NCBI GenBank assembly: GCA_009702755.1
Contig: WLHL01000007.1
Location: forward strand, 1 to 54,253
DNA length: 54,253 nucleotides
Direction of reading: 5' to 3'
From: Actinomycetota bacterium
GTDB taxonomy: Bacteria > Actinomycetota > Acidimicrobiia > Acidimicrobiales > Ilumatobacteraceae
Positions 2,953 to 54,253 of the stretch are shown in pieces; positions within the stretch are counted from its first letter, which is position 1; each line of letters begins with the position of its first letter. The notes under the pieces were generated by a model. That model did no database searches. It saw only the letters and a list, made by a program, of their open reading frames with translations, and had not been told where the DNA came from. The translations under genes were made by a program, and so were the position numbers.

Positions 2953-2961
2953 GTGAGAAAA

Positions 2962-3130
2962 CATCTACTTGGGAGAGAATGCTTTATGCGTCGCCGAAGG
3001 AGCAACCGCCCCGGAATCTCTCAGGCAAAAGGACCATGTAGATACAGAACGCTGGAAAGAGAGGGTTCGCCCTCCGCCGACGGGGAAAGCCACGCACGTG
3101 GTGAAGCTCTCAGGCACCAAAGACAGCGGG
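2962..3130 (+). ncRNA. Tandem glycine riboswitch (gcvT motif)
   Basis: Two glycine aptamers in series. Aptamer 1 is closed by atctac (2963-2968) pairing with gtagat (3038-3043). It carries the hallmarks GGGAGAGA (2971-2978), CGCCGAAGGAGCAA (around 2992-3005) and TCTCTCAGGCAAAAGGAC. Aptamer 2 is closed by cgctg (3050-3054) and cagcg (3124-3128), with AAGAGAG, CGCCGACGGGG and CTCTCAGGCACCAAAGAC. It lies directly upstream of gcvP, so glycine should switch on glycine cleavage. A short hairpin at 3139-3149 covers the gcvP Shine-Dalgarno and may be the switching element. Confidence 0.95.
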
Positions 3131-3138
3131 GGTCGATA

Positions 3139-3149
3139 CTCCGACGGAG
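3139..3149 (+). promoter_or_regulatory. Small hairpin hiding the gcvP Shine-Dalgarno
   Basis: ctcc (3139-3142) can pair with ggag (3146-3149) across a three-base loop. ggag is the only Shine-Dalgarno-like sequence before the gcvP ATG at 3155. No U-tract terminator is visible between aptamer 2 and gcvP, so control of translation is likelier than attenuation. The four-base-pair stem is weak on its own. Confidence 0.35.
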
Positions 3150-3154
3150 AACAT

Positions 3155-6031
3155 ATGAGCCCGAGCCCCCGGTCTTTGACTACCCCAGGTTTCACACCTG
3201 ACGACTTTGCATTTCGTCATCTCGGTTTGTCTGATGATGACCGTGCCGAGATGCTTCGCGTCATCGGTGTTACATCTGCAGAGGCACTCCTCGATGCCAC
3301 GATTCCCGCTGCGATTCGTTTGCGTGAACGCCTCCCTCTCGCCGAAGCAGTATCCGAACACACAGTTCTCGAAGAGCTTCGCGCAAAGTTTTCATCTGAT
3401 GTGAAGAGAACTTCATTCATTGGACAGGGCTACTACGGCACCATTACGCCACCAGTGGTCAAGCGCAATGTGCTGGAGAATCCTGCCTGGTACACGGCGT
3501 ATACCCCTTATCAGCCAGAGATAAGTCAGGGCCGTTTGGAAGCACTCTTGAACTTCCAAACAATGATCTCAGAAATCACAGGACTACCGCTTGCGAATGC
3601 ATCTCTTCTCGACGAAGCAACAGCGGTTGCTGAAGCAGTGACGATGGCTCATCGCATTAGCAAGTCTTCCTCCAACTCTGTTCTTGTCGATTCAAATACG
3701 CACCCACAAACACTCTCTGTTCTTCGTACTCGAATGGAGCCAATCGGCATCACTGTCGTAGAAGCCGCCGTCAACGACATGAACCCATCAGAGCATTTTG
3801 CGGTTGTCATCTCGTGGCCAGGCAGCAACGGTGCACTCCCCTCGCCCAACCTCATTCGTTCCATCACCTCTGCGGCACAGGAAGCCAAAGCCGTATCCAT
3901 CGCAACAACTGATCTCATGGCCTGCACAGTCGTCATACCTCCAGGACAATTGGGCTTTGACATCGCCGTCGGTTCATCCCAACGCTTCGGAGTTCCCATG
4001 GGATTTGGTGGGCCACACGCAGCATTTATGTCAACGCGAGAATCACATGCACGTTCACTACCTGGTCGCCTTGTTGGCGTGAGTACTGACACAGCGGGGC
4101 GTCCAGCCCTTCGATTAACTCTTCAGACACGCGAGCAACACATCCGCCGCGAGAAAGCCACATCGAATATCTGCACTGCTCAGGTGCTTCTCGCCAATAT
4201 CGCCGGCATGTACGGCGTGTGGCACGGACCCGACGGCCTGCGCCGCATTGCACATCGCATCAACACTCTCGCCTCTCGTGCAGCGAGATCACTAGACGCT
4301 TCTGGCTTCCCTCTGGTCTCGCAGCACTTCTTTGACACCGTGGCGTTCACCGTTTCCGATTCGTCTGTCGTTCTCCAGAATGTTCGCGGTGCTGGCTTCA
4401 ATATTCGACAAATTGATTCCACGACTCTTTCGCTCAGCATTGATGAAACCACGTCAGAGGAATCGCTCAATCAGTTACTGTCAGCAATTGGCGCTCAGGT
4501 GATTATTGAAACGACTGACTCACTTACAGAACGTGAGAGAACAGATTCCTTCATGACGCAATCTGTCTTCCACCGGTATCACACAGAGCACGAAATGCTT
4601 CGATATCTCCGCTTCCTCGCCGATAGAGACCTTGCGCTTGACCGCACGATGATTCCCCTTGGTTCATGCACAATGAAGTTGAACTCGACAACAGAGATGG
4701 AACCAGTGACATGGGCGGAGTTCGCATCTCTGCATCCTTTAGTTCCTGAGGACGAATCTGTCGGGATGAGAAAAGTCATTACGGAGCTTGAAGACATGCT
4801 CGTTGCTATCACTGGCTATGACGCCGTCAGTTTGCAACCCAATGCGGGAAGTCAGGGAGAGTTCGCAGGGCTCATGGCAATTCGTGCGTATCACCAGTCT
4901 CGTGGCGACCATCAGCGCGATATTTGTCTCATCCCTTCCAGCGCACACGGCACCAATGCGGCAAGCGCAGTGATGGCCGGCATGAAAGTCGTCGTCGTCG
5001 CTTGTGATGACAACGGCAATATCGACGTCAACGATCTTCGGAGCCAAGCTGAAAAGGCCGGCTCATCACTGGCTGCAACGATGGTGACTTATCCTTCAAC
5101 TCACGGAGTCTTCGAAGAAGCCATCGGCGAAATCTGTGCAATCATCCACGACAACGGCGGTCAGGTCTACGTTGACGGCGCGAATATGAACGCCCTTGTT
5201 GGAACAGCTCAACCAGGAAAATTCGGCGCAGATGTCAGCCACCTGAACCTGCACAAAACGTTCTGCATCCCCCATGGTGGCGGTGGACCAGGCGTTGGCC
5301 CGGTTGCTGTTCGCTCTCACCTTGCACCCTTTTTACCTGGTGACCCGCTCAAGACGGATTCCCCTGTTGGACCGATCTCAGCTGCGATGTATGGATCAGC
5401 GAGCATTCTGTGTATTCCATGGGTGTACATCACGATGATGGGATCAGATGGCCTCGTTCAAGCAACCTCGGATGCAATTCTTTCCGCCAACTACATCGCG
5501 GCTCGCCTCGATAAGGCATTCCCCGTGCTGTACAGAGGGACGAATAACAGCGTTGCCCATGAATGCATTTTGAATGTTGGAGAAGTTCTGAAGGGGTCCG
5601 AGCTCACCATCGACGACATCGCAAAACGATTGATGGACTATGGGCTTCACGCTCCAACAATGAGCTTTCCCGTTGCCAATACCTTGATGGTGGAGCCAAC
5701 AGAGAGTGAATCATTGTCGGAGGTGAACCGCTTCTGTGAGGCCATGATCAGCATTCGTCGCGAGATCGACCTTGTTCACACAGGTGTAGTCACCGCAGAA
5801 GAGTCGGTCCTACGACATGCTCCCCACACCATTGAGGACATCGCTGGTGATTGGACACATCCATACTCTCGCGAGGAAGCCCTCTTCCCTGTTCCTCAAC
5901 TTCGCTCCCGTGGCTACCACACACCGGTATCCCGCATTGATGCCGCGTACGGCGACCGCAACCTCGTATGCACTTGTGCACCGATCGAGGCGTACGCCAT
6001 GTCCCTTGATGCGAGTACCGTGGGCTCGTGA
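3155..6031 (+). CDS. gcvP: Glycine dehydrogenase (decarboxylating), P-protein
   Basis: P-protein of the glycine cleavage system. It decarboxylates glycine with PLP and passes the aminomethyl group to the lipoyl arm of GcvH. It is the long single-chain form (958 aa) with N- and C-terminal GDC-P halves. The C-terminal half carries the PLP lysine (K701) in LNLHKTFCIPHGGGG and the glycine-rich GPISAAMYGSA segment. The frame is open back to 2969, but that part is the riboswitch. ATG 3155 follows ggaga and begins the conserved FAFRHLG-type N-terminus. It is regulated by the tandem glycine riboswitch. The next gene starts inside its stop codon (GTGA), so they are co-translated. Confidence 0.97.
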   Translation: MSPSPRSLTTPGFTPDDFAFRHLGLSDDDRAEMLRVIGVTSAEALLDATIPAAIRLRERLPLAEAVSEHTVLEELRAKFSSDVKRTSFIGQGYYGTITPPVVKRNVLENPAWYTAYTPYQPEISQGRLEALLNFQTMISEITGLPLANASLLDEATAVAEAVTMAHRISKSSSNSVLVDSNTHPQTLSVLRTRMEPIGITVVEAAVNDMNPSEHFAVVISWPGSNGALPSPNLIRSITSAAQEAKAVSIATTDLMACTVVIPPGQLGFDIAVGSSQRFGVPMGFGGPHAAFMSTRESHARSLPGRLVGVSTDTAGRPALRLTLQTREQHIRREKATSNICTAQVLLANIAGMYGVWHGPDGLRRIAHRINTLASRAARSLDASGFPLVSQHFFDTVAFTVSDSSVVLQNVRGAGFNIRQIDSTTLSLSIDETTSEESLNQLLSAIGAQVIIETTDSLTERERTDSFMTQSVFHRYHTEHEMLRYLRFLADRDLALDRTMIPLGSCTMKLNSTTEMEPVTWAEFASLHPLVPEDESVGMRKVITELEDMLVAITGYDAVSLQPNAGSQGEFAGLMAIRAYHQSRGDHQRDICLIPSSAHGTNAASAVMAGMKVVVVACDDNGNIDVNDLRSQAEKAGSSLAATMVTYPSTHGVFEEAIGEICAIIHDNGGQVYVDGANMNALVGTAQPGKFGADVSHLNLHKTFCIPHGGGGPGVGPVAVRSHLAPFLPGDPLKTDSPVGPISAAMYGSASILCIPWVYITMMGSDGLVQATSDAILSANYIAARLDKAFPVLYRGTNNSVAHECILNVGEVLKGSELTIDDIAKRLMDYGLHAPTMSFPVANTLMVEPTESESLSEVNRFCEAMISIRREIDLVHTGVVTAEESVLRHAPHTIEDIAGDWTHPYSREEALFPVPQLRSRGYHTPVSRIDAAYGDRNLVCTCAPIEAYAMSLDASTVGS

Positions 6032-6489
6032 GCCAAGAGACCCATCACGAATCAACTAGTTCCTCCGAACCAAGTTCACCGACTAACCCCATTGAGCAAT
6101 TGCTGCAATTGCTTGCATTGGTCGACCCCATTGATCTTGCGGGGAAAGCAATCGATACGACTCGCCGTACCACAGAGACTCTCGTCGTTGTTCTTGAGAA
6201 CTTTGCTTCGACAATCGACAATCTGAACAGAACAACAACTCGTGTCAATGCACTGCTAGATGAAGTGGAAGAGCCTCTCAAGCGCGTGATGCCACAACTT
6301 GGTAACGCAATGAACGCGATGGCAACTATGGGTGAAGCTGCATCACAGCTTGCCGAACTGTCAAAACGACTCGGGCCACTCACCACTCTTGCTGAGAATG
6401 CTGGTGGACTCTTTGGCTTCCGACCTGGCAAGCCAAGTGGGAACCAAACTTCCCCTCCTACTTCTTCTTCGCCACAAACGGAGTCATAA
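6028..6489 (+). CDS. Uncharacterised helical protein coupled to gcvP
   Basis: A 153-residue protein with no catalytic motif I recognise. Residues 1-20 are Ser/Pro/Glu-rich and disordered. Residues about 22-120 are amphipathic helix rich in Leu, Thr, Asn and Ala (NRTTTRVNALLDEVEEPLKR), resembling phasin-like or apolipoprotein-like helical bundles. The tail is Pro/Ser/Thr-rich. The GTG start overlaps the gcvP stop (GTGA). Its last 32 bases overlap the convergent gcvT gene. There is no signal peptide or membrane segment. Function is unknown. Coupling to gcvP suggests expression when glycine is abundant. Confidence 0.65.
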   Translation: MSQETHHESTSSSEPSSPTNPIEQLLQLLALVDPIDLAGKAIDTTRRTTETLVVVLENFASTIDNLNRTTTRVNALLDEVEEPLKRVMPQLGNAMNAMATMGEAASQLAELSKRLGPLTTLAENAGGLFGFRPGKPSGNQTSPPTSSSPQTES

Positions 6490-7510
6490 CAACTACTCCG
6501 GGAATCTGTGTCCCACGTACGTCAAGAAGTACGTGATCACCAACAGCAGTCGTTGGCTTCACAAATGCAAGAGCCACACAATGCCCCAGTGTTGGCGAGA
6601 AGTTGCCACTACTGACGAAACCAATCTCGGTGCCCGCTGAGTCCATCACGACTGTTCCGTCGCGAGCGGGACGACGTCCATCGATGGTGATCCCAATCAA
6701 GCGACGTGAAACGCCAGTTTCCTTCTCTTTCGCCAGAGCATCACGACCAAGGAACGAATCCTTCTTCCAAGCAACGACCCACTCAAGGCCAGCTTGCAGA
6801 GAAGTAATCCCCTCGCCTAATTCATGACCATGAAGCGGAAGTGCTGCTTCAAGGCGCAACGTGTCACGTGCACCGAGCCCCGCTGGTACTACGCCCGCCG
6901 CAAGAAGCGCATTCCACACATCTGCGCAACCTTCAATGGGCACCGCTATCTCAATGCCATCTTCGCCTGTGTACCCCGTACCAGCAACAACACAAGGGTG
7001 TCCAGCAACAGTGACCTCACGAACATTGAATCGCGGAACATCTGCAGCCTCTGGACAAAAGGTTGAAACTAAGCGACGCGCCTCAGGACCCTGAACAGCG
7101 ATCACTGCACGAGATGCCGTCGTGTCTATTCCGCCAATCGCAGCAACAACACGATCCGTGTTCGAGGCGTTCGGCATGACATCAAAAACATTTTCAGAGA
7201 CCCACCACACAATGATGTCGTCAAGTACTGAAGCATCAACATCGTTCAATAAGTGTGTGTACTGAGCGCGACCAGGTGCAATCTTTACAAGATCATTTGT
7301 CAGAGCAGCCTGCAGCCGTGCAAAAGCATCAGGGCCTTCTACGCGAACTGTCCCAAGGTGTGACACGTCAAACATCGCAGCCGAATTTCTGCATGCTGCA
7401 TGCTCAGAGAGTGTTCCTTCGGAATATGCCAAAGGCATCTCCCATCCACCGAACGGAACCATCTTTGCATTGAGAGATCGATGCGCAGCATCGAGAGGAG
7501 AGAATTTCAT
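6458..7510 (-). CDS. gcvT: Aminomethyltransferase, T-protein of glycine cleavage
   Basis: T-protein (350 aa). It transfers the methylene group from aminomethyl-GcvH to tetrahydrofolate and releases ammonia. The N-terminal GcvT folate-binding domain begins PFGGWEMPLAY. The aspartates of NDVDASVLDDIIVWW near residue 95 cover the catalytic Asp region, GYTGEDGIEI lies near 180, and the C-terminal barrel contains GFVSSGNFSPTLG. Start ATG 7510 lies two bases after the merR stop at 7513, so it is transcribed with that regulator, not with gcvP or gcvH. It is convergent with, and overlaps, the gene at 6028. Confidence 0.96.
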   Translation of the reverse strand: MKFSPLDAAHRSLNAKMVPFGGWEMPLAYSEGTLSEHAACRNSAAMFDVSHLGTVRVEGPDAFARLQAALTNDLVKIAPGRAQYTHLLNDVDASVLDDIIVWWVSENVFDVMPNASNTDRVVAAIGGIDTTASRAVIAVQGPEARRLVSTFCPEAADVPRFNVREVTVAGHPCVVAGTGYTGEDGIEIAVPIEGCADVWNALLAAGVVPAGLGARDTLRLEAALPLHGHELGEGITSLQAGLEWVVAWKKDSFLGRDALAKEKETGVSRRLIGITIDGRRPARDGTVVMDSAGTEIGFVSSGNFSPTLGHCVALAFVKPTTAVGDHVLLDVRGTQIPGVVVMTPFVAKKK

Positions 7511-21967: not shown

Positions 21968-23161
21968 ATGCGCGTTGACACCAACTTTTTTTGCACAGTA
22001 CCCATGCCTGATGCTGGTGATCTTTCAATAGACCCGACCTCACGCCGTTACGGCAACGACGATGTCATCGCGTGTTACCGCAATTTGGTCGAATGGGCGC
22101 GCACTGCAGACAACCTGGGCTACGACACCATGTGGCTTACCGAACACCATTTTCAATTCGAAGGCTACGAAGTTCTTCCGAACTTAATCATGTTTGGCCA
22201 GCATCTGGCGATGCAAACAAAGAACCTTCGCTTAGGACAGATGTTTAATGTGGTTCCTCAATGGCATCCACTGCGACTTGCGGAAGATTTTGCACTTGCA
22301 GACATCATCACTGGCGGGCGCATGGAGTTCGGTGTGGGACGCGGCACTGTTCCACGAGAAGCATGGAGTTTGGGGACTGTTGTCGCATCTGGCGACAATG
22401 CCATGTCTGCAGAGCATGACAAGGAGAATCGCCAAACTTTTGAAGAGTCGATGGAAGTGATTAAGCGTGCCTGGACCAATGAGCGATTCAGTTACCGCGG
22501 CGAGAAGTTCCAATTCCCTCCCGACGAGATTCCCGACCGCGGCTCGTACGTTGATGACTTGACTCTCATCCCCCGCCCCGAGCGACCCATTGACATTTAT
22601 CAGCCGGTCACATCGCCCGAGACAATTGAGTATGTTCCGCGCGCTGGTCACAAAGCTGTGTACTGGCTTCAAAACAGTGACAGCCAATTAGACAAATGGA
22701 ATCGGTACGCAGCAATCAGAGAAGAGATGGGCTCCCCCGTCGCGCCTGGCGAAGATCGCATGTTCGTATTGAACGTTCATGTTGGCAAGACACGTGAAGC
22801 CGCGATGTTGCGGGGAGCACCTGGTCACGACGAGTTCTGTCGCTTCCTCTCCCCTTATGGGCGTTTTTCTAGTTATCGAAACCCAGACGGATCAAAAGTT
22901 GCGTTCAATCACTGTCCGTCAGTTGAAGAATCGAATTCGCAAAAGATTATGGCCATTGGTTCGGTTGATGATGTTGTCGACACGATCGGATTCTGGAAAG
23001 AACTTCTCGATCTTAAGCACCTATGTATCTTCTTCGACTTCCCAGGCATCACGCAAGATGGCATGAACGAACAACTGCAATTGTTTGCAGAAGAAGTAAT
23101 GCCAAAGCTTGGTGAGAAGATGGATCGTCGTCCTCTACCCAACCTTGCACCACTTGTATAG
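21968..23161 (+). CDS. LLM-class (luciferase-like) flavin or F420-dependent oxidoreductase
   Basis: A TIM-barrel oxidoreductase of 397 aa in the bacterial luciferase-like superfamily. The N-terminal strand MRVDTNFF, then YDTMWLTEHHF near residue 57 and GGRMEFGVGRG near 116, are family signatures. Such enzymes use FMNH2 with oxygen as monooxygenases, or F420 as dehydrogenases; the sequence alone does not decide. ATG 21968 is leaderless. The amidohydrolase starts three bases after its stop, so both are one transcript, and the ABC transporter follows. This suggests oxidation of an imported compound. Confidence 0.85.
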   Translation: MRVDTNFFCTVPMPDAGDLSIDPTSRRYGNDDVIACYRNLVEWARTADNLGYDTMWLTEHHFQFEGYEVLPNLIMFGQHLAMQTKNLRLGQMFNVVPQWHPLRLAEDFALADIITGGRMEFGVGRGTVPREAWSLGTVVASGDNAMSAEHDKENRQTFEESMEVIKRAWTNERFSYRGEKFQFPPDEIPDRGSYVDDLTLIPRPERPIDIYQPVTSPETIEYVPRAGHKAVYWLQNSDSQLDKWNRYAAIREEMGSPVAPGEDRMFVLNVHVGKTREAAMLRGAPGHDEFCRFLSPYGRFSSYRNPDGSKVAFNHCPSVEESNSQKIMAIGSVDDVVDTIGFWKELLDLKHLCIFFDFPGITQDGMNEQLQLFAEEVMPKLGEKMDRRPLPNLAPLV

Positions 23162-23164
23162 CTA

Positions 23165-24373
23165 ATGACATTTCGTCTCGCATCAGTCACTCTGCCTGAA
23201 CAGGGACAAGTTGATATCGATGTAGACGGCCGACTAGTCGCAGCAATCACTCCAGCGGGGACAACTCCCTGCATTGGTGACTCTTTCAATCTGCATGGCC
23301 ATGTCCTCAGTTCCAGTTTTGCTGAACCTCATGCACACCTCGATAAGGCTTTTCTGGCGGATCGAGTTCAGAACCCGACAGGCGACCTTCTTGGAGCGAT
23401 CCAAGGCCTTGAAGCAGTGCGAGACACCATCACTTTTGATGACATCGTGAACAGAGCAGTCACAGCAGCACAACTGATGTCACGTAATGGCGTGACCAGT
23501 ATTCGCACACATGCAGATACAACCATCAACGCAGGCCTGACGTCTGTTCTCGCCCTTCTTGAAGCCAAACGTCTGTGTTCCTCCTTCATTGATATTCAGG
23601 TTGCGATGCTTTTGGGATGGCCGGTGACCGGAATCCAAGGCGCCGAAAGCCGTGCACTCGCACGAGACGCAATCGATGCAGGAGTTGACGTTGTTGGGGG
23701 TTGTCCTCATCTTGACCCGAATCCTCATGAAGCCGTCGAGTATTTCTTGCATTTGGCACTCGACAACACACTGCCCCTCGATCTTCATGCAGATGAGAAT
23801 CTCCGAGAAACATCCGATGATCTTGAGTATCTTGCCGACCTCATGCTTGCCGGCAACATTAGGCACCAGGCCTCAGCGAGTCATTGTGTGTCGTTGTCCG
23901 TTCAGGGCGAGTCTGGGATCCAACGCACAGCAGAAAAAGTTGCACGCGCTGGCATCACCGTGACCGCACTCCCTCACACCAACCTCTACCTCCAGGGCCG
24001 TGGCATCACCAGTTCCGTTCCTCGAGCAATTACACCTGTCGACGCTTTGCGACGAGCTGGCGTTGTTGTTGCTGCTGGCGCAGACAATGTTCAAGACCCT
24101 TTCAACCTGATGGGAAGAGCAGACCCCCTCGAAACAGCATCACTGATGGTGATGGCGGCCCATCAGAGCCCACAGGATGCTCTCAATATGGTGACATCAG
24201 CGGCGACACAGGTTGTCCACGGAGACGCTTCTCATGTCCGAGTTGGCGAGGTGGCAAACCTTGTCGCTATTCCAGCGAGTAATGTTCGTGGAGCAATCGC
24301 GATGGGGCCCCCCGACAGATTTGTCGTATATGGCGGCGTCGTGATCTCAGATCAAAAACGAAACATAAAGTAA
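23165..24373 (+). CDS. Cytosine-deaminase-like amidohydrolase
   Basis: A metal-dependent amidohydrolase of 402 aa in the CodA/cytosine deaminase branch. Metal and catalytic residues are in place: EPHAHLDK near residue 55 (H-x-H), LHADENLRE near 205 (His and Glu), ASHCVSL near 238 (His) and GADNVQDPFNLMG near 307 (Asp). Relatives deaminate or hydrolyse cytosine, isoguanine, ammelides or creatinine-like rings, so the substrate is a guess. It starts three bases after the LLM gene and is followed by an ABC importer and, further on, a creatininase-family enzyme. The N-terminal beta segment is short. Confidence 0.85.
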   Translation: MTFRLASVTLPEQGQVDIDVDGRLVAAITPAGTTPCIGDSFNLHGHVLSSSFAEPHAHLDKAFLADRVQNPTGDLLGAIQGLEAVRDTITFDDIVNRAVTAAQLMSRNGVTSIRTHADTTINAGLTSVLALLEAKRLCSSFIDIQVAMLLGWPVTGIQGAESRALARDAIDAGVDVVGGCPHLDPNPHEAVEYFLHLALDNTLPLDLHADENLRETSDDLEYLADLMLAGNIRHQASASHCVSLSVQGESGIQRTAEKVARAGITVTALPHTNLYLQGRGITSSVPRAITPVDALRRAGVVVAAGADNVQDPFNLMGRADPLETASLMVMAAHQSPQDALNMVTSAATQVVHGDASHVRVGEVANLVAIPASNVRGAIAMGPPDRFVVYGGVVISDQKRNIK

Positions 24374-24407
24374 ACACTTTTGTGACGATGCTGTTCCTTT
24401 CATCCCT

Positions 24408-24413
24408 TATGGT
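24408..24413 (+). promoter_or_regulatory. -10 box of the ABC transporter operon, leaderless
   Basis: TATGGT followed by exactly six bases and ATG 24420. This decides the start over later in-frame ATGs at 24444 and 24462. Confidence 0.45.
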
Positions 24414-24419
24414 GCAGGT

Positions 24420-25211
24420 ATGCGGAGTCCAGCGGTGTTCGATATGCAGACAGGCACGAACATGATTGAACAACACGCTTCCACCTTGCTCGACTTTGAC
24501 AACGTGTCAATGACGTTCCCCGATGGAACAAAAGCATTGGAGGATATTTCCTTCTCCGTCAACGCTGGCGAATTCGTCACTGTCGTGGGACCATCGGGTT
24601 GCGGCAAGTCAACTTTGTTGCGAATCGCATCAAACCTAGAAGCCAACACTGGCGGCGTGTGCTCCGTTGACAGAAACAGCATCGGCTACGTCTTCCAAGA
24701 CCCAACACTGATGGCATGGCGCACTGTTCAACGAAACGTTGAACTGATTGCTGAACTACACAAGATTTCGAAAAACGAGAGGCAGGCTCGTGCTGCTGAA
24801 GCCATCGAACTAGTGGGACTCAAAGGATTCGAAGACAAATATCCTCGACAGCTGTCTGGTGGCATGAGAATGCGCGCGTCGCTTGCTCGTTCACTCGTGA
24901 TGAAGCCAAAAGTCTTTCTTTTCGACGAGCCATTCGGAGCGTTAGACGAAATAACTCGAGAGCGCCTGAACGATGAAGTGCTTCATCTCTTCCAATCAGA
25001 GGGATTCGCCGGGTTGTTCATCACTCACTCCATCTCGGAAGCTGTGTACATGTCCACCAAAGTTCTCGTGATGTCAGCAAGGCCTGGTCGTATCATCGCT
25101 TCGTTCGATGTCCCGTTTGGACTCAATCGCACACATGATTTGCGGTACGAACCACAGTTTGCGGAATTATGTGGAGAAATCTCTCACGCTCTCAGAGGGG
25201 CTCACCAATGA
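24420..25211 (+). CDS. ABC transporter ATPase, NitT/TauT type
   Basis: The ATP-binding subunit (263 aa) of an importer of the nitrate/sulfonate/taurine/thiamine-precursor family. Walker A VGPSGCGKSTLL is near residue 59, the signature LSGGMRMRASLARS near 145, Walker B KVFLFDEPFGALDE near 163, and the H-loop FITHSISEA near 199. The leaderless ATG 24420 is chosen by its -10 box; ATG 24462 is an alternative with an AGG seven bases ahead. The permease gene overlaps its stop (ATGA). It is encoded right behind the amidohydrolase. Confidence 0.93.
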   Translation: MRSPAVFDMQTGTNMIEQHASTLLDFDNVSMTFPDGTKALEDISFSVNAGEFVTVVGPSGCGKSTLLRIASNLEANTGGVCSVDRNSIGYVFQDPTLMAWRTVQRNVELIAELHKISKNERQARAAEAIELVGLKGFEDKYPRQLSGGMRMRASLARSLVMKPKVFLFDEPFGALDEITRERLNDEVLHLFQSEGFAGLFITHSISEAVYMSTKVLVMSARPGRIIASFDVPFGLNRTHDLRYEPQFAELCGEISHALRGAHQ

Positions 25212-26071
25212 GTTCCGTTGACACAAACAACGCTTCAGTTGATGAGATCATCCACGAGCAAAAAGATGGTTTCAAGATCTCCGATTACGTTGGTCCAGCA
25301 GTCACGTTCGGACTCTTTATTGCTATTTGGTACATCATCTCGGGGATTGTTCTTCCCGAGCACAAACGATTCCTCCTCCCAACACCTCACGAGGTGATTG
25401 ATGAAGGATTTCTTGTATGGCGAACAGGCGAACGACGCGGTCTGCAACCAATTCTCGTATCACTATGGGACTCAGCAAAGATCGCCCTCATTGGTCTGAC
25501 CATCACCATCGTGTTGGGTATGACTCTCGCAGTCATCATGAGCACTCGTCGCTGGCTGGAGAGAGCAACGTGGCCATTCTTGGTTGCTGTTCAGAGCGCA
25601 CCAATTCTTGCATTGACCCCGCTCATTCGGGCACTGATTGATGGCACGCAAACCCAACGGCTCCTCGTCGTCGTGCTGATCTCCATCTTCCCGATCGTAA
25701 GCAATACTCTCTTCGGCCTGCTCTCCGCCGAGAAGAGTCAACACGAACTCTTTACTCTTCAGGGCGCATCACGTTGGGTACGTCTTTCAAAGTTGCAATT
25801 CCCTGCTGCATTGCCAAACATTTTCGTCGGATTCCGAATCTCTGCTGGTCTTGCCGTAATCGGCGCAGTTGTCGGAGATTTCTACTTCCGCGAAGGTGGC
25901 GTTGTCGGAATCGGCGCAATTATTCAGCTGTATCGAAATCGACTCTGGGGTCCAGAGTTGATCGCCTCGATTTTGCTTGCGAGCGCATTAGGTCTGGTTG
26001 TGTTCCTCTTCTTCGGATGGCTCTCGCGCGTAGCCATTGGAAAGTGGCACACCACCAACAGGGGTCAGTGA
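25208..26071 (+). CDS. ABC transporter permease, NitT/TauT type
   Basis: A membrane permease of 287 aa with about six helices, among them FGLFIAIWYIISGIVL, ALIGLTITIVLGMTLAVI and LIASILLASALGLVVFLFFG. The cytoplasmic coupling loop (EAA-like) is LQGASRWVRLSKLQFPAALP near residue 183. It overlaps the ATPase gene by four bases (ATGA). The substrate-binding lipoprotein gene lies 42 bases downstream, so the importer is complete and in one operon. Confidence 0.93.
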   Translation: MSSVDTNNASVDEIIHEQKDGFKISDYVGPAVTFGLFIAIWYIISGIVLPEHKRFLLPTPHEVIDEGFLVWRTGERRGLQPILVSLWDSAKIALIGLTITIVLGMTLAVIMSTRRWLERATWPFLVAVQSAPILALTPLIRALIDGTQTQRLLVVVLISIFPIVSNTLFGLLSAEKSQHELFTLQGASRWVRLSKLQFPAALPNIFVGFRISAGLAVIGAVVGDFYFREGGVVGIGAIIQLYRNRLWGPELIASILLASALGLVVFLFFGWLSRVAIGKWHTTNRGQ

Positions 26072-26113
26072 CCCATCCCTCAGAACAACCATCAATCAGG
26101 AGATCCACCACTC

Positions 26114-27271
26114 ATGAAAATTCGTCCACTCATCGGAGTTGCTATTGCTGCATCACTCGCGCTCGCCGCGTGTGGTGGAAGCGATAGTGCTTCTGACACA
26201 ACAATGCCCACAGCCGCAGAAGGCATCGACCTTGCTGCAGCTGGATGTCCAGCAACCATCGGTATTCAAACTGACTGGTTCCCAGAAGCCGAACACGGCA
26301 ACTTGTACAACCTCGTTGGCCCCGGATACACACTCGATGCGAAGGCATTGACCGTCACCGGAGACCTCGTTTCCGGTGGAAAGACAACTGGCGTCAAAGT
26401 TCAAGTACGCGCAGGAGGTCCAGCCATTGGATACGGACGTCCGATTGCAGCAATGTACGAGAAGCCAGAGGAAATTCTCCTCGGATTCGTCGGAACAGAT
26501 GAGGCAGTGAGCCAATCAACTGCCAAGCCATCGATGGCCGTTGCCGCACCGTTCAACATCAATCCACAGATCATCATGTGGGATCCGACCAACAACCCAG
26601 GCGTCAAGACAATTGCTGACCTCAAAGAACCAGGTGTGAAAGTTCGCTACTTCCAAGATGCGGATTACATGAAGTACCTCATTCAGAGCGGCCAACTTGA
26701 TGCAAAGCAGACAGACGACACCTATGACGGTTCACCTGCAGCTTTCATCGCCTCAGGGGGCAAAGATGCTCAGCAAGGTTTCGGTACTGCCGAGCCATAC
26801 GCATACAAGAACATGTTCAAGGACTGGATGAAGGACGTTGCATACCAGTACGTTCATGACGCTGGCTGGACCGCTTACGCACAGTCCTTGGCAGCAATCC
26901 CTGCCAATCTTGAAAAGTATGACTCTTGCTTAACTGCACTAGTGCCAGTCATTCAGCAGGCCATGGTCGATTACGTCGCTTCACCAGATGCAGCGAACGC
27001 AATCATCATCGATGCAGTGACGACATACAACCAGGACTGGACCTACACAGCAGGTCAAGCAGACGCAGCAGTTGCTCAGATGCAAGCTGACAAGCTTGTT
27101 GCTAACAGCCCCGATGGAACTCTCGGTTCATTTGATCTCGATCGTGTAACCAAGTTCATTGAGACAGCAACACCTGTGTATACCGCCACGGGCGCTGTGC
27201 TCAAGGAAGGCCTCGCTGCAGAAGACATCGTGACCAACAAGTACATCAACAAGAGCATCACGCTCAAGTAG
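26114..27271 (+). CDS. Substrate-binding lipoprotein of the ABC transporter
   Basis: A solute-binding protein of 385 aa anchored outside the membrane. The signal peptide ends in a lipobox SLALAACGGS with the lipidated cysteine at residue 20, followed by a Ser/Thr-rich linker. The mature part is an NMT1/SsuA-like two-lobe binding protein. AGGAG precedes the ATG by 11 bases. There is a strong terminator 12 bases after the stop, closing the operon. The ligand cannot be read from sequence; neighbouring deaminase and creatininase-type hydrolases suggest a cyclic nitrogen compound. Confidence 0.9.
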   Translation: MKIRPLIGVAIAASLALAACGGSDSASDTTMPTAAEGIDLAAAGCPATIGIQTDWFPEAEHGNLYNLVGPGYTLDAKALTVTGDLVSGGKTTGVKVQVRAGGPAIGYGRPIAAMYEKPEEILLGFVGTDEAVSQSTAKPSMAVAAPFNINPQIIMWDPTNNPGVKTIADLKEPGVKVRYFQDADYMKYLIQSGQLDAKQTDDTYDGSPAAFIASGGKDAQQGFGTAEPYAYKNMFKDWMKDVAYQYVHDAGWTAYAQSLAAIPANLEKYDSCLTALVPVIQQAMVDYVASPDAANAIIIDAVTTYNQDWTYTAGQADAAVAQMQADKLVANSPDGTLGSFDLDRVTKFIETATPVYTATGAVLKEGLAAEDIVTNKYINKSITLK

Positions 27272-27283
27272 AGACAATAAGAG

Positions 27284-27315
27284 AAGGGCGGGACCGTATG
27301 GTCCCGCCCTTTTTC
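27284..27315 (+). terminator. Intrinsic terminator after the ABC transporter operon
   Basis: A perfect 12-base-pair GC-rich stem (27284-27295 with 27300-27311), loop gtat, and a T run at 27310-27314. Only two As lead it, so it works mainly rightward. Confidence 0.9.
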
Positions 27316-27360
27316 GTTCTCTATGTCAGAAGACATCTACCGGGGAGTACGTCAGAATCT

Positions 27361-28137
27361 CTAGCGACCAAAATCGAAAGTGCTGATTTCGCGCATGGCG
27401 CCACACAAAGAATCAACAGCAGAGGCAAACATCTGACCGCCGATCTCTGCACTTGCACCGGTTGGATCTCCAATGTGCCCGTCAGCAAAGAAATCATTAG
27501 AAAGCCAGCCAAAGGCCACGCGCCCACCGAACCGAACCTGTTCATTCTCTGCGAGCTTCTCAGGCACACGACGGACCGCAAGGCTCATGTCGACAAGGTC
27601 GGGTCGCAAGTGAAGCATCACCGACGTCTCGTCCATGCCGCCATGAACGCCCATTCCCAGTTCTGATGCAGCCGACGATCCACCTTGATCAGCAGGCATA
27701 TGAGGGTGGGCCAAAAATGTCTGAAGGCCGTACTTCAATCGAATCTCTCGGTTCATCATGGCTGTGAGAGCGCTATTGCCACCATGACCATTGATGAAGA
27801 GAATTTTGCGAGCTGGAGTTGAAGCGACACAACGACCTATGTCGTCGAGAACCGACATCAATGTCGTGGCTGACAGCCAGAAGGTTCCGCCTGACCACGC
27901 ATGTTCATTCGATTTGGTGAATGGAAGTGTTGGGAGCAGCCAGGCATTTGTTTCCTCTCCCACCTTGTTGACAGCCGCCTGGGAAACCGCATCAGCAACA
28001 ACAAAATCAGTGTTCAAAGGAAGGTGCGGACCATGCTGTTCGATCGCCCCCAATGGCAACACAATGATGGAATCCTTTGTTAACGAAGTGGGAATCTGCG
28101 GGGCACGAAGATCTGCAAGATTGCGTGAAGAAGACAT
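27361..28137 (-). CDS. Creatininase-family amidohydrolase
   Basis: A metal amidohydrolase of 258 aa. The family metal motifs are PLGAIEQHGPHLPLNTD near residue 28 (Glu, His, Asp), INGHGGNSA near 115 and HGGMDETSVM near 165 (Glu). Family members open creatinine, deformylate an FAPy intermediate or mature mycofactocin. No mycofactocin genes are in the window. ATG 28137 is six bases from TAGGTT, hence leaderless. It converges on the transporter operon and diverges from a CrtI-like oxidoreductase. A ring amide related to the transporter's ligand is a reasonable substrate, but this is inference. Confidence 0.88.
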   Translation of the reverse strand: MSSSRNLADLRAPQIPTSLTKDSIIVLPLGAIEQHGPHLPLNTDFVVADAVSQAAVNKVGEETNAWLLPTLPFTKSNEHAWSGGTFWLSATTLMSVLDDIGRCVASTPARKILFINGHGGNSALTAMMNREIRLKYGLQTFLAHPHMPADQGGSSAASELGMGVHGGMDETSVMLHLRPDLVDMSLAVRRVPEKLAENEQVRFGGRVAFGWLSNDFFADGHIGDPTGASAEIGGQMFASAVDSLCGAMREISTFDFGR

Positions 28138-28143
28138 ATCTTC

Positions 28144-28149
28144 AACCTA
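28144..28149 (-). promoter_or_regulatory. -10 box of the creatininase gene, leaderless
   Basis: TAGGTT on the minus strand followed by exactly six bases and ATG 28137. Confidence 0.5.
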
Positions 28150-28170
28150 TACCAGTGAGAGAATGAACCT

Positions 28171-29721
28171 ATGACGAAGCGAGCGACGACCGATTTTGAT
28201 GCAGTCGTAATTGGCGCAGGACATAACGGCCTCATCACTGCTGCCTATCTCGCACGTTATGGACTTAGCACTTTGCTCATCGAAGCACGCTCAGAAGTGG
28301 GCGGCACAGCAGCATCTGAGACCTTCTCTGGATCAACAGTCAACATCTGCAATTGCGATCATCTCACTATTCGCACAACCCCCGTCGCCGAAGAACTCAA
28401 CCTTGCTTCCCATGGTTTGAAATACATCAACATCGAACCGCCACAGATCAATCTTGATTGGAACACGGGTCGGCCGTGGGAAATTTGGCATGACGTTGAC
28501 AAGACAGTCGATTCACTTGGTCGGTCACATCCTGATTCAGTCGAGGGCTATCGAAAATTCGCTCGAGCAGCGATCCCCGTCGCCAAACTGATTCTCGACG
28601 CAGCATCACAGCCCCCCACAAGAGGATCTCTTATTTCCTCTGTCGTCAGAAAAGGCGGCCGTGGCGTCGCAACCATGCTCAAGATGAGTCGCATGTCAGC
28701 TGCCGATGTCATGCGACAGTTCTTTGACAACGAAGCCATCATCGGCCCGGCAATGGTGGAGGGTCCTGTCGTCTGGGGCCTGTCCCCTGAAACTCCTGGC
28801 ACCGGCCTCGGAGCAGTTGCGTTTGCACTCCGTCATGTCGCGAATGTCGGTCGGCCAGAAGGTGGAAGTGGCGCGCTCCCCGAATCAATCAAACAATCCT
28901 TCTTGCAATCAGGAGGCCTCCTCCGCACTAACACGCGTGTCACAGGCATTATTTGTGATGGCAATAGCGTCAGTGCAGTACAGACAAGCGACGGAGCCAC
29001 AGTGACAGCGCGCATCGTGGTCTCGGCATGTGACCCACAGCGAACCTTCGTTACTTGGTTGAAGAATCCACCAGCAAGAGCAGCTTCACTTGTTGAAAGA
29101 TGGCGCAGCTCAACCCCAGGCGAGGGCTATGAATCAAAGATCGATGCCATCACCAGCACTCCCCCCACTTTGGCGGGAGTTTCCTCTCTGCACAGCACAC
29201 CAGTGGCATCAACCATTGTCGTTAGCCCTTCACTTGCTGAACTCCATCGAGGCGCTCAGTTAATGCGCGAAGGACGCACGATGCCTCGCATGGCGTTACT
29301 TGCGAATGTTCCATCAGTGGCAGACCCCACAATTTCTCCTTCCCAACAACACGTGTTGAGCTTGGAAGCGTTGTACACCCCCTATTCATTCGTTGATGGA
29401 TGGCAATCACACGAAGAACCTGAACGATGGTTAAAGCAATTTGCCACGCTCGCTCAGCCTGGGTTTATGGAATCAATCATTGACTGGCGTGTCCTCACTC
29501 CGGCCGACTACGAAACCAGTTTCCATTTACCGAAAGGTCACGCCACCAGTTTTGCGGGCGGTCCTTTGGCGGCATTCATAGGTTCCACACCAGAACTCAC
29601 TCGATACCACACCCCCATTAAGGGTTTGTATCTCACTGGTGCAGCAACTTTCCCCGGTGCTGGCGTATGGGGAGCAAGTGGGCGCAACGCCGCACTCACC
29701 ATCATCAAAGAGATGACGTAA
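28171..29721 (+). CDS. FAD-dependent oxidoreductase, CrtI/phytoene-desaturase-like
   Basis: A flavoprotein of 516 aa with the N-terminal dinucleotide fold VIGAGHNGLITAAYLARYG near residue 12 and the second strand LIEARSEVGGTAASE near 35. The C-terminal FAD signature is LYLTGAATFPGAGVWGASGR near 487. This belongs to the PYROXD2/phytoene-dehydrogenase-like group of unknown substrate rather than to true carotenoid desaturases; no carotenoid genes are near. gagag lies nine bases before the ATG. The intergenic gap to the divergent creatininase gene is only 33 bases. Its stop abuts the stop of the convergent phosphoribosyltransferase. Confidence 0.87.
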   Translation: MTKRATTDFDAVVIGAGHNGLITAAYLARYGLSTLLIEARSEVGGTAASETFSGSTVNICNCDHLTIRTTPVAEELNLASHGLKYINIEPPQINLDWNTGRPWEIWHDVDKTVDSLGRSHPDSVEGYRKFARAAIPVAKLILDAASQPPTRGSLISSVVRKGGRGVATMLKMSRMSAADVMRQFFDNEAIIGPAMVEGPVVWGLSPETPGTGLGAVAFALRHVANVGRPEGGSGALPESIKQSFLQSGGLLRTNTRVTGIICDGNSVSAVQTSDGATVTARIVVSACDPQRTFVTWLKNPPARAASLVERWRSSTPGEGYESKIDAITSTPPTLAGVSSLHSTPVASTIVVSPSLAELHRGAQLMREGRTMPRMALLANVPSVADPTISPSQQHVLSLEALYTPYSFVDGWQSHEEPERWLKQFATLAQPGFMESIIDWRVLTPADYETSFHLPKGHATSFAGGPLAAFIGSTPELTRYHTPIKGLYLTGAATFPGAGVWGASGRNAALTIIKEMT

Positions 29722-30216
29722 TTACGCGTCTTTCACAAGTCCGTCGCGCTTAACGACGGGATCCTTGTCGCTCCATGGGAAGTTGATCCATTGATCTGTT
29801 TTCTTCCAGACATAATCACATTGCACGACAGAGTGTGACTTTTCATAGAGGACAGCAGAACGAACTTCCTTCACACGACCACGGAAGAAATCTTCAACGA
29901 TCTTGAGAGTGTGACCTGTATCAGCAACATCATCCACGATGAGTACGCGTGCGAAACGGAGTTCCACAAGATCTGGAACCGGCGGAAGAATCATCGGAAC
30001 TGGAAGGCGCTCATCGACACCGGTGTAGAACTCAACATTCATTGTGTAGAGATTCTTCACAGCGAGGGCATACCCCAACGCTCCTGCGGCCAAGAGACCG
30101 CCTCGCGCAATGGCAAGAATGATGTCTGGCTCGTATCCAGAATCTGCCACCTTTGTTGCGAGTTCACGACTCGCTCCGCCGAAGATGTCCCATGTCATGA
30201 TTTCGCGTTCGCTCAC
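29722..30216 (-). CDS. Purine-type phosphoribosyltransferase
   Basis: A PRTase of 164 aa. The PRPP-binding motif VLIVDDVADTGHTL lies near residue 91, and the N-terminal IILAIARGGLLAAG near 32 carries the conserved Arg-Gly. The hood region is short, as in xanthine/guanine phosphoribosyltransferases, and the C-terminal INFPWSDKDP is like Gpt-type proteins. The base could be xanthine, guanine or hypoxanthine. GTG 30216 is preceded by TAGTTT and six bases, hence leaderless. It is convergent with, and touches, the CrtI-like gene (29721/29722). Confidence 0.85.
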   Translation of the reverse strand: MSEREIMTWDIFGGASRELATKVADSGYEPDIILAIARGGLLAAGALGYALAVKNLYTMNVEFYTGVDERLPVPMILPPVPDLVELRFARVLIVDDVADTGHTLKIVEDFFRGRVKEVRSAVLYEKSHSVVQCDYVWKKTDQWINFPWSDKDPVVKRDGLVKDA

Positions 30217-53775: not shown

Positions 53776-53785
53776 CTCGAATAAA

Positions 53786-53902
<117 letters not shown>

Positions 53903-53970
53903 ATCAGTTGTCAATGTGGCAATAACCCCACAAGGACTCCAGAGCAAGCACGAGCATAAATTTCAAAATA

Positions 53971-54253
53971 AAGCCCTCGGCCGATTAGTACCGGTCAGCT
54001 GAGTGCGTTACCGCACTTACACTTCCGGCCTATCAACGTGGTGGTCTTCCACGGGCCTTACCAGGTTAACCCTGTGAGAGTCCTCATCTTTGAACGGGTT
54101 TCCCACTTAGATGCTTTCAGCGGTTATCCCTTCCGGAGGTAGCTAATCAGCCATGCCCTTGGCAGGACAACTGACACACTAGAGCTCCGTCCATCCCGGT
54201 CCTCTCGTACTAGGGATAGCTTTCATCAAGACTCTTCCGGCTGCGGAGGATAG
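53971..54253 (-). rRNA. rrl: 23S ribosomal RNA, 3' end (partial, runs off the window)
   Basis: Minus strand of domain VI: the sarcin-ricin loop AGTACGAGAGGACC, then GCTGAAAGCATCTAAG and the end GTACTAATCGGCCGAGGGCTT. The gene continues beyond base 54253. A 68-base spacer to 5S holds no tRNA. Confidence 0.97.

Follow-up and report, generated by a model that had tools for sequence, protein, structure and literature searches.

A 54,253-nucleotide stretch of DNA from an Actinomycetota bacterium of the family Ilumatobacteraceae (contig WLHL01000007.1, assembly GCA_009702755.1; hereafter the window) carries neighboring genes for a luciferase-like monooxygenase (LLM), a metal amidohydrolase (AMH), an ATP-binding cassette (ABC) importer, a creatininase-family hydrolase (CREAT) and a CrtI/CrtO-like FAD oxidoreductase (CRT), which together form a real module. 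We consider it probable that this module serves the catabolism of an imported N-heterocycle, the likeliest candidate being a purine- or pyrimidine-type ring that supplies nitrogen. The host assembly measures 1.84 Mb in 94 contigs and is 85% complete.

The LLM gene (21968-23161, plus strand; Pfam PF00296 Bac_luciferase, 5.7e-38), which probably encodes an FMNH2-dependent monooxygenase, is followed on the same strand, with successive gaps of 3, 79, -1, and 42 nt, by the genes for AMH (23165-24373; PF07969 Amidohydro_3, CodA/AtzC superfamily), the ATPase (24453-25211; PF00005), the permease (25211-26071; PF00528) and a lipoprotein substrate-binding protein (SBP; 26114-27271); the ATPase and permease open reading frames (ORFs) overlap by 1 nt. 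Since all five run in the same direction and the gaps are short, they look like one transcription unit. The best models for the ATPase are taurine/nitrate-type ATPases, below cut-off, and the SBP, which has no Pfam match at 1e-3, was assigned a THI5/ThiY-like fold from an AlphaFold2 (AF2) model and a fold match. With ATPase, permease and a periplasmic SBP of the NMT1/TauA fold all present, the importer is of the NitT/TauT type. The CREAT gene (27361-28137; PF02633, 4.3e-64) lies on the minus strand, convergent with the SBP end of the five-gene run and divergent from the CRT gene (28171-29721, plus strand; PF01593), the starts of the two being 33 nt apart. A sequence-only reading of the window had placed and typed all of these genes correctly, together with a phosphoribosyltransferase gene beyond them, and its 3-nt gap between LLM and amidohydrolase is confirmed; the location of the creatininase and phosphoribosyltransferase genes on the opposite strand and the position of the SBP under the Pfam cut-offs are additions to it.

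That reading had set co-occurrence of the genes in other genomes beforehand as a test of its proposal, and such co-occurrence was found. Profiles of the four enzymes (thresholds 1e-60 for LLM and AMH, 1e-80 for CRT, and 1e-40 for CREAT) were run against 100 related genomes, often incomplete metagenome-assembled ones, of which 61 belong to the window's family and 39 to other families of the order. LLM was matched in 54 genomes, AMH in 51, CRT in 50, and CREAT in 51; all four occurred together in 45, none occurred in 45, and the 10 genomes with part of the set all belong to the window's own family. In the other families of the order the complete set was present in 5 out of 39 genomes (G064, G075, G076, G083, and G085) and a partial set in none. 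This largely all-or-none presence of four enzyme families identifies the set as a module and led us to reject chance clustering, by a chance estimate that ignores phylogeny. The SBP was matched at E 1e-3 in 64 of the 100 genomes, some of the matches being weak, short and N-terminal.

The organization of the module in relatives was followed in 40 loci fetched around SBP matches from 39 of the 64 SBP-positive genomes, with ORFs from a codon-usage caller and labels from the best BLAST match at 1e-10; the ATPase label and that of an F420-type LLM cluster (c25) include paralogues, and many names of unlabelled neighbors rest on one tested representative. By these ORF calls, which overlooked CREAT in L051 and L056 (it is present there by a separate search), 19 loci hold all seven families, 6 hold all but LLM, 8 the transporter only, and 7 other combinations. 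The gene order of the window recurs in 14 out of 40 loci, and elsewhere the set stays together with inversions or transpositions. AMH has a same-strand neighbor within 150 nt in 25 out of 27 cases, LLM in 18, and in the 28 fetched loci where CREAT and CRT were both called the two are separated by 17 to 118 nt in 25 and by 1059 to 2851 nt in 3. For three of the genomes with transporter-only loci (G038, G039, and G047) the enzymes are located elsewhere in the genome; in G038 the genes for CRT, CREAT, a carbamoylase, AMH, and LLM form a cluster of their own, on a contig separate from that of the SBP. In larger genomes the set occupies a conserved slot, with genes for IspH, an acyl-CoA dehydrogenase, an AMP ligase and GDPD on one side and phosphoribosyltransferase and xanthine dehydrogenase genes on the other. 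Of these flanking genes, those for the acyl-CoA dehydrogenase, the AMP ligase and GDPD were considered as members and set aside: together with IspH they mark a chromosomal position that is conserved, and relatives lacking the enzymes retain them at it. In L058, L061, and L232 (genomes G036, G040, and G021) a GDPD-ATPase-permease-SBP row occupies this slot, and LLM, AMH, CREAT, and CRT were not found in the genome, the transporter having been kept by itself.

The window's genus, whose genomes are small (1.1 to 2.5 Mb as assembled), keeps a reduced core, to which relatives with larger genomes add further genes alongside. Within the window's family these comprise an M20 carbamoylase (in 11 of the 40 SBP loci), an SDR (in 9), a gamma-glutamyltransferase-like hydrolase (in 8), and the Mo subunit of a xanthine dehydrogenase (in 9). 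One such carbamoylase scores above two cut-offs (hydantoinase/carbamoylase, 424.3 vs. 204; allantoate amidohydrolase subfamily, 454.9 vs. 452) and one Mo subunit above that of the xanthine dehydrogenase PucD (818.1 vs. 783.65); a FAD subunit is XdhB-like, below cut-off. The surroundings are richer in other families. In L080, from another family, CREAT is flanked by an 8-oxoguanine-deaminase-like gene (446.8 vs. a cut-off of 532) and a dihydropyrimidinase (492.8 vs. 393.25), in a cluster that further holds YqeB (302.2 vs. 220), YqeC, an XdhC-like gene (127.2 vs. 161.6), pieces of a Mo-hydroxylase, and SsnA-like genes. L107, of the window's family, has in a row M15-like, CRT, PTPS-like, SBP, permease, ATPase, phosphoesterase, CREAT, and AMH genes, continuing with an F420-type LLM, an aminohydrolase, a Mo-hydroxylase, an SsnA-like and an XdhC-like gene; one gene in the row is unlabelled. 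L099, whose family lies outside the order, combines XDH-like, XdhC, MobA-like, CREAT, FAD_binding_4, SBP, permease, ATPase, and AMH genes with a cupin-type regulator and two aminohydrolases.

A second set of loci was chosen by AMH (the 80 best out of at least 550, with flanks of up to 10 kb, many truncated), and the counts that follow are raw occurrences. The ATPase occurs in 53 of them, the permease in 49, LLM in 44, the SBP in 42, CRT in 37, and CREAT in 33; AMH is the sole core family of the seven in 10 loci, and 13 hold two core families. Further labels are the F420-type LLM (47; three of these genes were tested, with F420-type Mer as best models, below cut-offs), UbiD (26), a UbiX-like gene (23), an 8-oxoguanine-deaminase-like gene (17), a Mo subunit (15), SsnA-like (14), M15-like (14), Rieske (13) and 2-oxoglutarate (2OG) oxygenase genes (13), two PALP-type clusters (13 each), and RidA (11). 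CREAT, Mo subunit, SsnA-like, and XdhC-like genes occur together in 6 out of 80 (L163, L165, L168, L169, L170, and L184). In Kutzneria viridogrisea the AMH, ATPase, permease, and SBP genes are consecutive, and a FAD_binding_4 gene comes after them. In L188 and L099, where no CRT was called, a FAD_binding_4 oxidase adjoins the SBP; one flavoenzyme family may here have taken the place of another.

At the level of the phylum, AMH was matched at 1e-70 in 31 out of 396 genomes, and 10 of the 31 were fetched as loci. L107 and L108 belong to the window's family, and L099 carries the module genes named for it earlier. L106 combines a 30% AMH homologue with an SBP-permease-ATPase set in its vicinity (36, 44, and 58%), and in L100-L105 there are AMH homologues of 30-33% only and no SBP label; an AMH homologue alone does not imply the module. 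L100 is a pyrimidine-type operon with a dihydropyrimidinase (571.6 vs. 393.25), an aminotransferase, a carbamoylase, and an NCS1 permease, in which an F420-type LLM (597 vs. 295.45) stands directly ahead of a CodA cytosine deaminase (568.1 vs. 483), both above cut-off. Taken together, the surroundings of other copies include Mo-hydroxylases, aminohydrolases of the guanine-deaminase/SsnA-like kind, a dihydropyrimidinase, carbamoylases, RidA, UbiD, and F420-type LLM genes, and this company supports N-heterocycle breakdown. The earlier proposal of N-heterocycle uptake and breakdown thus gains from the purine- and pyrimidine-type ring-degrading enzymes around other copies, but the single-gene analogies on which it had been built are weaker.

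This is apparent from the enzymes themselves. Cytosine deaminase models are the best-scoring ones for AMH, yet it stays below every cut-off listed (186.7 vs. 403 for PRK07583, 173.4 vs. 438, and 151.5 vs. 483). Its residues H56, H58, H208, E211, H240, and D307 (HxH, HxDE, H, D) are invariant in 25 aligned rows and align with what we take to be the metal and catalytic residues of CodA (HxH, the H and E of an HCDE-type motif, H246, and D313), so that the site is intact. Gln156 of CodA, presumably the cytosine-binding residue, is replaced by Gly in the window and its position is not conserved. The sub-cut-off scores and the absence of Gln156 weaken the identification of AMH as a cytosine deaminase. 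CREAT similarly remains below the curated cut-offs (creatininase TIGR04448, 90.5 vs. 235; MftE TIGR03964, 128.8 vs. 172). Creatininase E34, H36, D45, H120, and E122 are, we assume, metal ligands and Trp174 a substrate residue; CREAT keeps equivalents of the first four, with Glu122 replaced by Gly and Trp174 by Met, two positions that have been studied in creatininase and at which mutant chains among its PDB matches are altered. With these two residues absent and the score below cut-off, the analogy with creatininase is weakened. The nearest PDB sequences to LLM are of the luciferase alpha type and diketocamphane monooxygenase. Its AF2 model, with a predicted local distance difference test (pLDDT) score of 84, is closest in fold to RslO1/luciferase; the first RutA appears at fold rank 39 and no chain named RutA occurs among 40 PDB sequence matches to E 5, which weakens the comparison with RutA that had been made. 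CRT comes closest to phytoene dehydrogenase and to amine oxidases and falls under the carotenoid cut-offs (CrtO, 188.5 vs. 1000; CrtI family, 111.3 vs. 238.1).

The substitutions in AMH and CREAT weigh against N-heterocycle catabolism, and so do several other observations. None of the typed genes within 10 kb of the module in the window is SsnA, hydantoinase, carbamoylase, or xanthine dehydrogenase, and the SsnA-like genes of relatives score under the SsnA cut-off. The family of CRT is better known for carotenoids and amines. The Mo-hydroxylase domain MoCoBD_1 is found in 90 out of 100 genomes (the genome to which the window belongs has it four times elsewhere), and because Mo-hydroxylases are this common only their adjacency to the module counts; in many of the loci that have one, the nearby LLM is of the F420 type and not of the window type. 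UbiD, Rieske, and 2OG-oxygenase neighbors are not classic purine enzymes. Finally, in genomes G036, G040, G057, G089, and G099, which have transporter-only loci, the enzymes were not found in the genome either; the ligand may be of use in the absence of these enzymes, or the transporter may serve a different purpose.

The AF2 model of the binding protein (pLDDT 92) has as best fold match 3ix1, a formylaminopyrimidine-binding protein (E 4.4e-15); a thiamin-binding protein and Thi5 are also among its best matches, and TauA and SsuA rank behind these. By sequence it reaches no Pfam cut-off, NMT1 included, and a PDB search with its profile gave a single match, at E 0.74. The predicted resemblance to pyrimidine binders supports the N-heterocycle reading, but it also gives weight to a serious rival, in which the importer would bring in hydroxymethylpyrimidine or formylaminopyrimidine and the hydrolases would convert thiamine breakdown products to a usable precursor. 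Such salvage would agree with a DWxPxxxHGxxY motif that the SBP has in common with a ThiY-like protein of G043 (aligned by hhalign of the SBP profile at E 9.2e-6, probability 83), and with the distribution of ThiC, which turned up in 18 out of 39 genomes of the order's other families, none of them one of the five module carriers there, and in no genome of the window's family (61 searched); the window's family looks unable to make the thiamine pyrimidine by ThiC. However, when the window and loci from five relatives (L038, L041, L048, L052, which contains transporter and carbamoylase only, and L056) were scanned with Rfam, no riboswitch or other cis-element came up near the module at gathering score. 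The single thiamine pyrophosphate (TPP) riboswitch match in the window's genome (G000:C1 27711-27821, L229) is on a contig other than that of the module and is followed by genes for thiamine diphosphokinase (141.5 vs. 76.4), an ABC binding protein of the thiamine type (207.6 vs. 93.4), and a permease, from which it follows that the organism probably takes up intact thiamine. Only in G039, G043, and G050 do TPP matches and module genes lie on one contig, at distances of over 100 kb (judged by eye, in fragmented assemblies), and G043 has a distinct ThiY-like importer (NMT1, 2.3e-60) behind a TPP-like element (53.1 vs. a gathering score of 54.3). TenA is present in 10 out of 100 genomes, and the many oxidative and ring-degrading neighbors would be superfluous for salvage. 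The lack of a riboswitch at the module and the separate thiamine uptake genes weaken TPP-controlled salvage in particular, and we regard thiamine-pyrimidine salvage as improbable.

A less specialized alternative is that promiscuous hydrolases and oxidoreductases break down an aromatic or aliphatic amide, an amine, or an amino-acid derivative. Each enzyme family of the module has members acting on non-heterocycles, LLM is nearest to Baeyer-Villiger and aldehyde monooxygenases, and the gamma-glutamyltransferase-like, UbiD, Rieske, M15 dipeptidase-like, and PALP neighbors would fit. It accounts poorly for the recurrent linkage to genes for Mo-hydroxylase, XdhC-like proteins, guanine-deaminase-like aminohydrolase, dihydropyrimidinase, and carbamoylase, or for the predicted SBP fold, and seems to us rather unlikely. 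The ring could also be a pteridine (pterin or lumazine): pterin deaminases are known in the CodA superfamily, and a gene of the PTPS family (PF01242, one tested) accompanies the transporter at short range in 4 out of 40 SBP loci (L049, L056, L057, and L059) and is present in 5 out of 80 AMH loci. It adjoins the transporter in L049 and L057, stretches without the enzymes (the genome of L049 lacks them, that of L057 has them elsewhere). No PTPS gene was seen in the window's module or in most fetched loci, and pteridine breakdown, instead of purine or pyrimidine breakdown, is in our opinion very unlikely.

Among the matches listed in a search of the open-access literature we recognized no paper on this gene set, the nearest being PMC12507026. 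That paper describes an anaerobic uric acid pathway with a reductive degradation cluster of XdhD, YgfK or UacX, SsnA, HyuA, YgeW/UacY, YgeY, and YgeX, and a luciferase-family variant of it in Chloroflexota. Purine-type ring breakdown of this sort, the variant included, is the nearest known kind, since relatives of the module contain several of the cluster's families, i.e., LLM-family, Mo-hydroxylase, SsnA-like, D-hydantoinase, M20 hydrolase, and PALP genes, if not all in one locus. However, the copy in the window lacks SsnA, HyuA, XdhD, and YgeX beside the module and is, therefore, not assigned to the uric acid cluster; an SsnA-like gene (below cut-off) and a HyuA-type gene appear only in distant relatives. 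Furthermore, the LLM of the window is FMN-luciferase-like, whereas the F420-type LLM is a separate neighbor in relatives, and CREAT, CRT, and a dedicated ABC importer set the module apart as well. With the Rut pathway for uracil it shares an LLM-fold oxygenase and, in some relatives, RidA and flavodoxin-fold, FMN-reductase-like genes, but its LLM is not RutA-like by sequence (RutB and RutG were not searched for). The reductive pyrimidine operon of L100 also has LLM and CodA-superfamily genes side by side; they differ in LLM subfamily, in transporter class, and in that CodA is above cut-off in L100 but not in the window. The ThiXYZ formylaminopyrimidine importer resembles the module in SBP fold and N-terminal motif, but no TPP riboswitch was found at the module and the SBP of the window has no NMT1 Pfam match.

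If the module indeed degrades an N-heterocycle, the SBP, permease, and ATPase would import it, the direction being that suggested by their family. AMH would hydrolyze a C-N bond, either of an exocyclic amine or of a ring amidine, LLM may oxygenate the ring or a fragment of it using reduced flavin, CREAT could hydrolyze an amide or formamide left by ring opening, and CRT would oxidize a C-N or C-OH bond. What the analysis established is the gene set, its conservation, co-occurrence and adjacency, the intact metal site of AMH, and the predicted folds of LLM and SBP; from these we infer each reaction, as well as their order and the substrate class. It is possible, and we put it forward tentatively, that this represents an undescribed, oxygen-using way of opening purine- or pyrimidine-type rings by an FMN luciferase-family oxygenase, an amidohydrolase other than CodA, and a creatininase homologue that is no creatininase, fed by a THI5-fold SBP whose task has shifted from taking up a vitamin to providing nitrogen, and with a wide distribution among Acidimicrobiia of aquatic habitats.

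Next to CRT lies the gene for a purine-type phosphoribosyltransferase (29722-30216, minus strand; PF00156; XPRT model, 57.3 vs. 138). It is a conserved neighbor, present in 28 out of 40 relatives' loci and adjoining xanthine dehydrogenase genes in larger genomes, and its membership of the module is uncertain. Elsewhere in the window a glycine riboswitch (2960-3046) overlaps the start of the ORF for the glycine cleavage P-protein (2969-6031), with the T-protein gene at 6458-7510 on the opposite strand, and the right edge (53785-54253, minus strand) comprises 5S and the end of 23S rRNA.

Relatives of AMH that occur with parts of the module come from Acidimicrobiia records with titles indicating ocean, lake, and groundwater samples, and also from Kutzneria. 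For these enzymes in these genomes the usual labels of cytosine deaminase, creatininase, and phytoene desaturase are probably wrong. If our interpretation of the module as a pathway for N-heterocycle catabolism is true, it would reveal an organic-nitrogen source for a mostly uncultured group and would provide a gene marker for the use of dissolved N-heterocycles.

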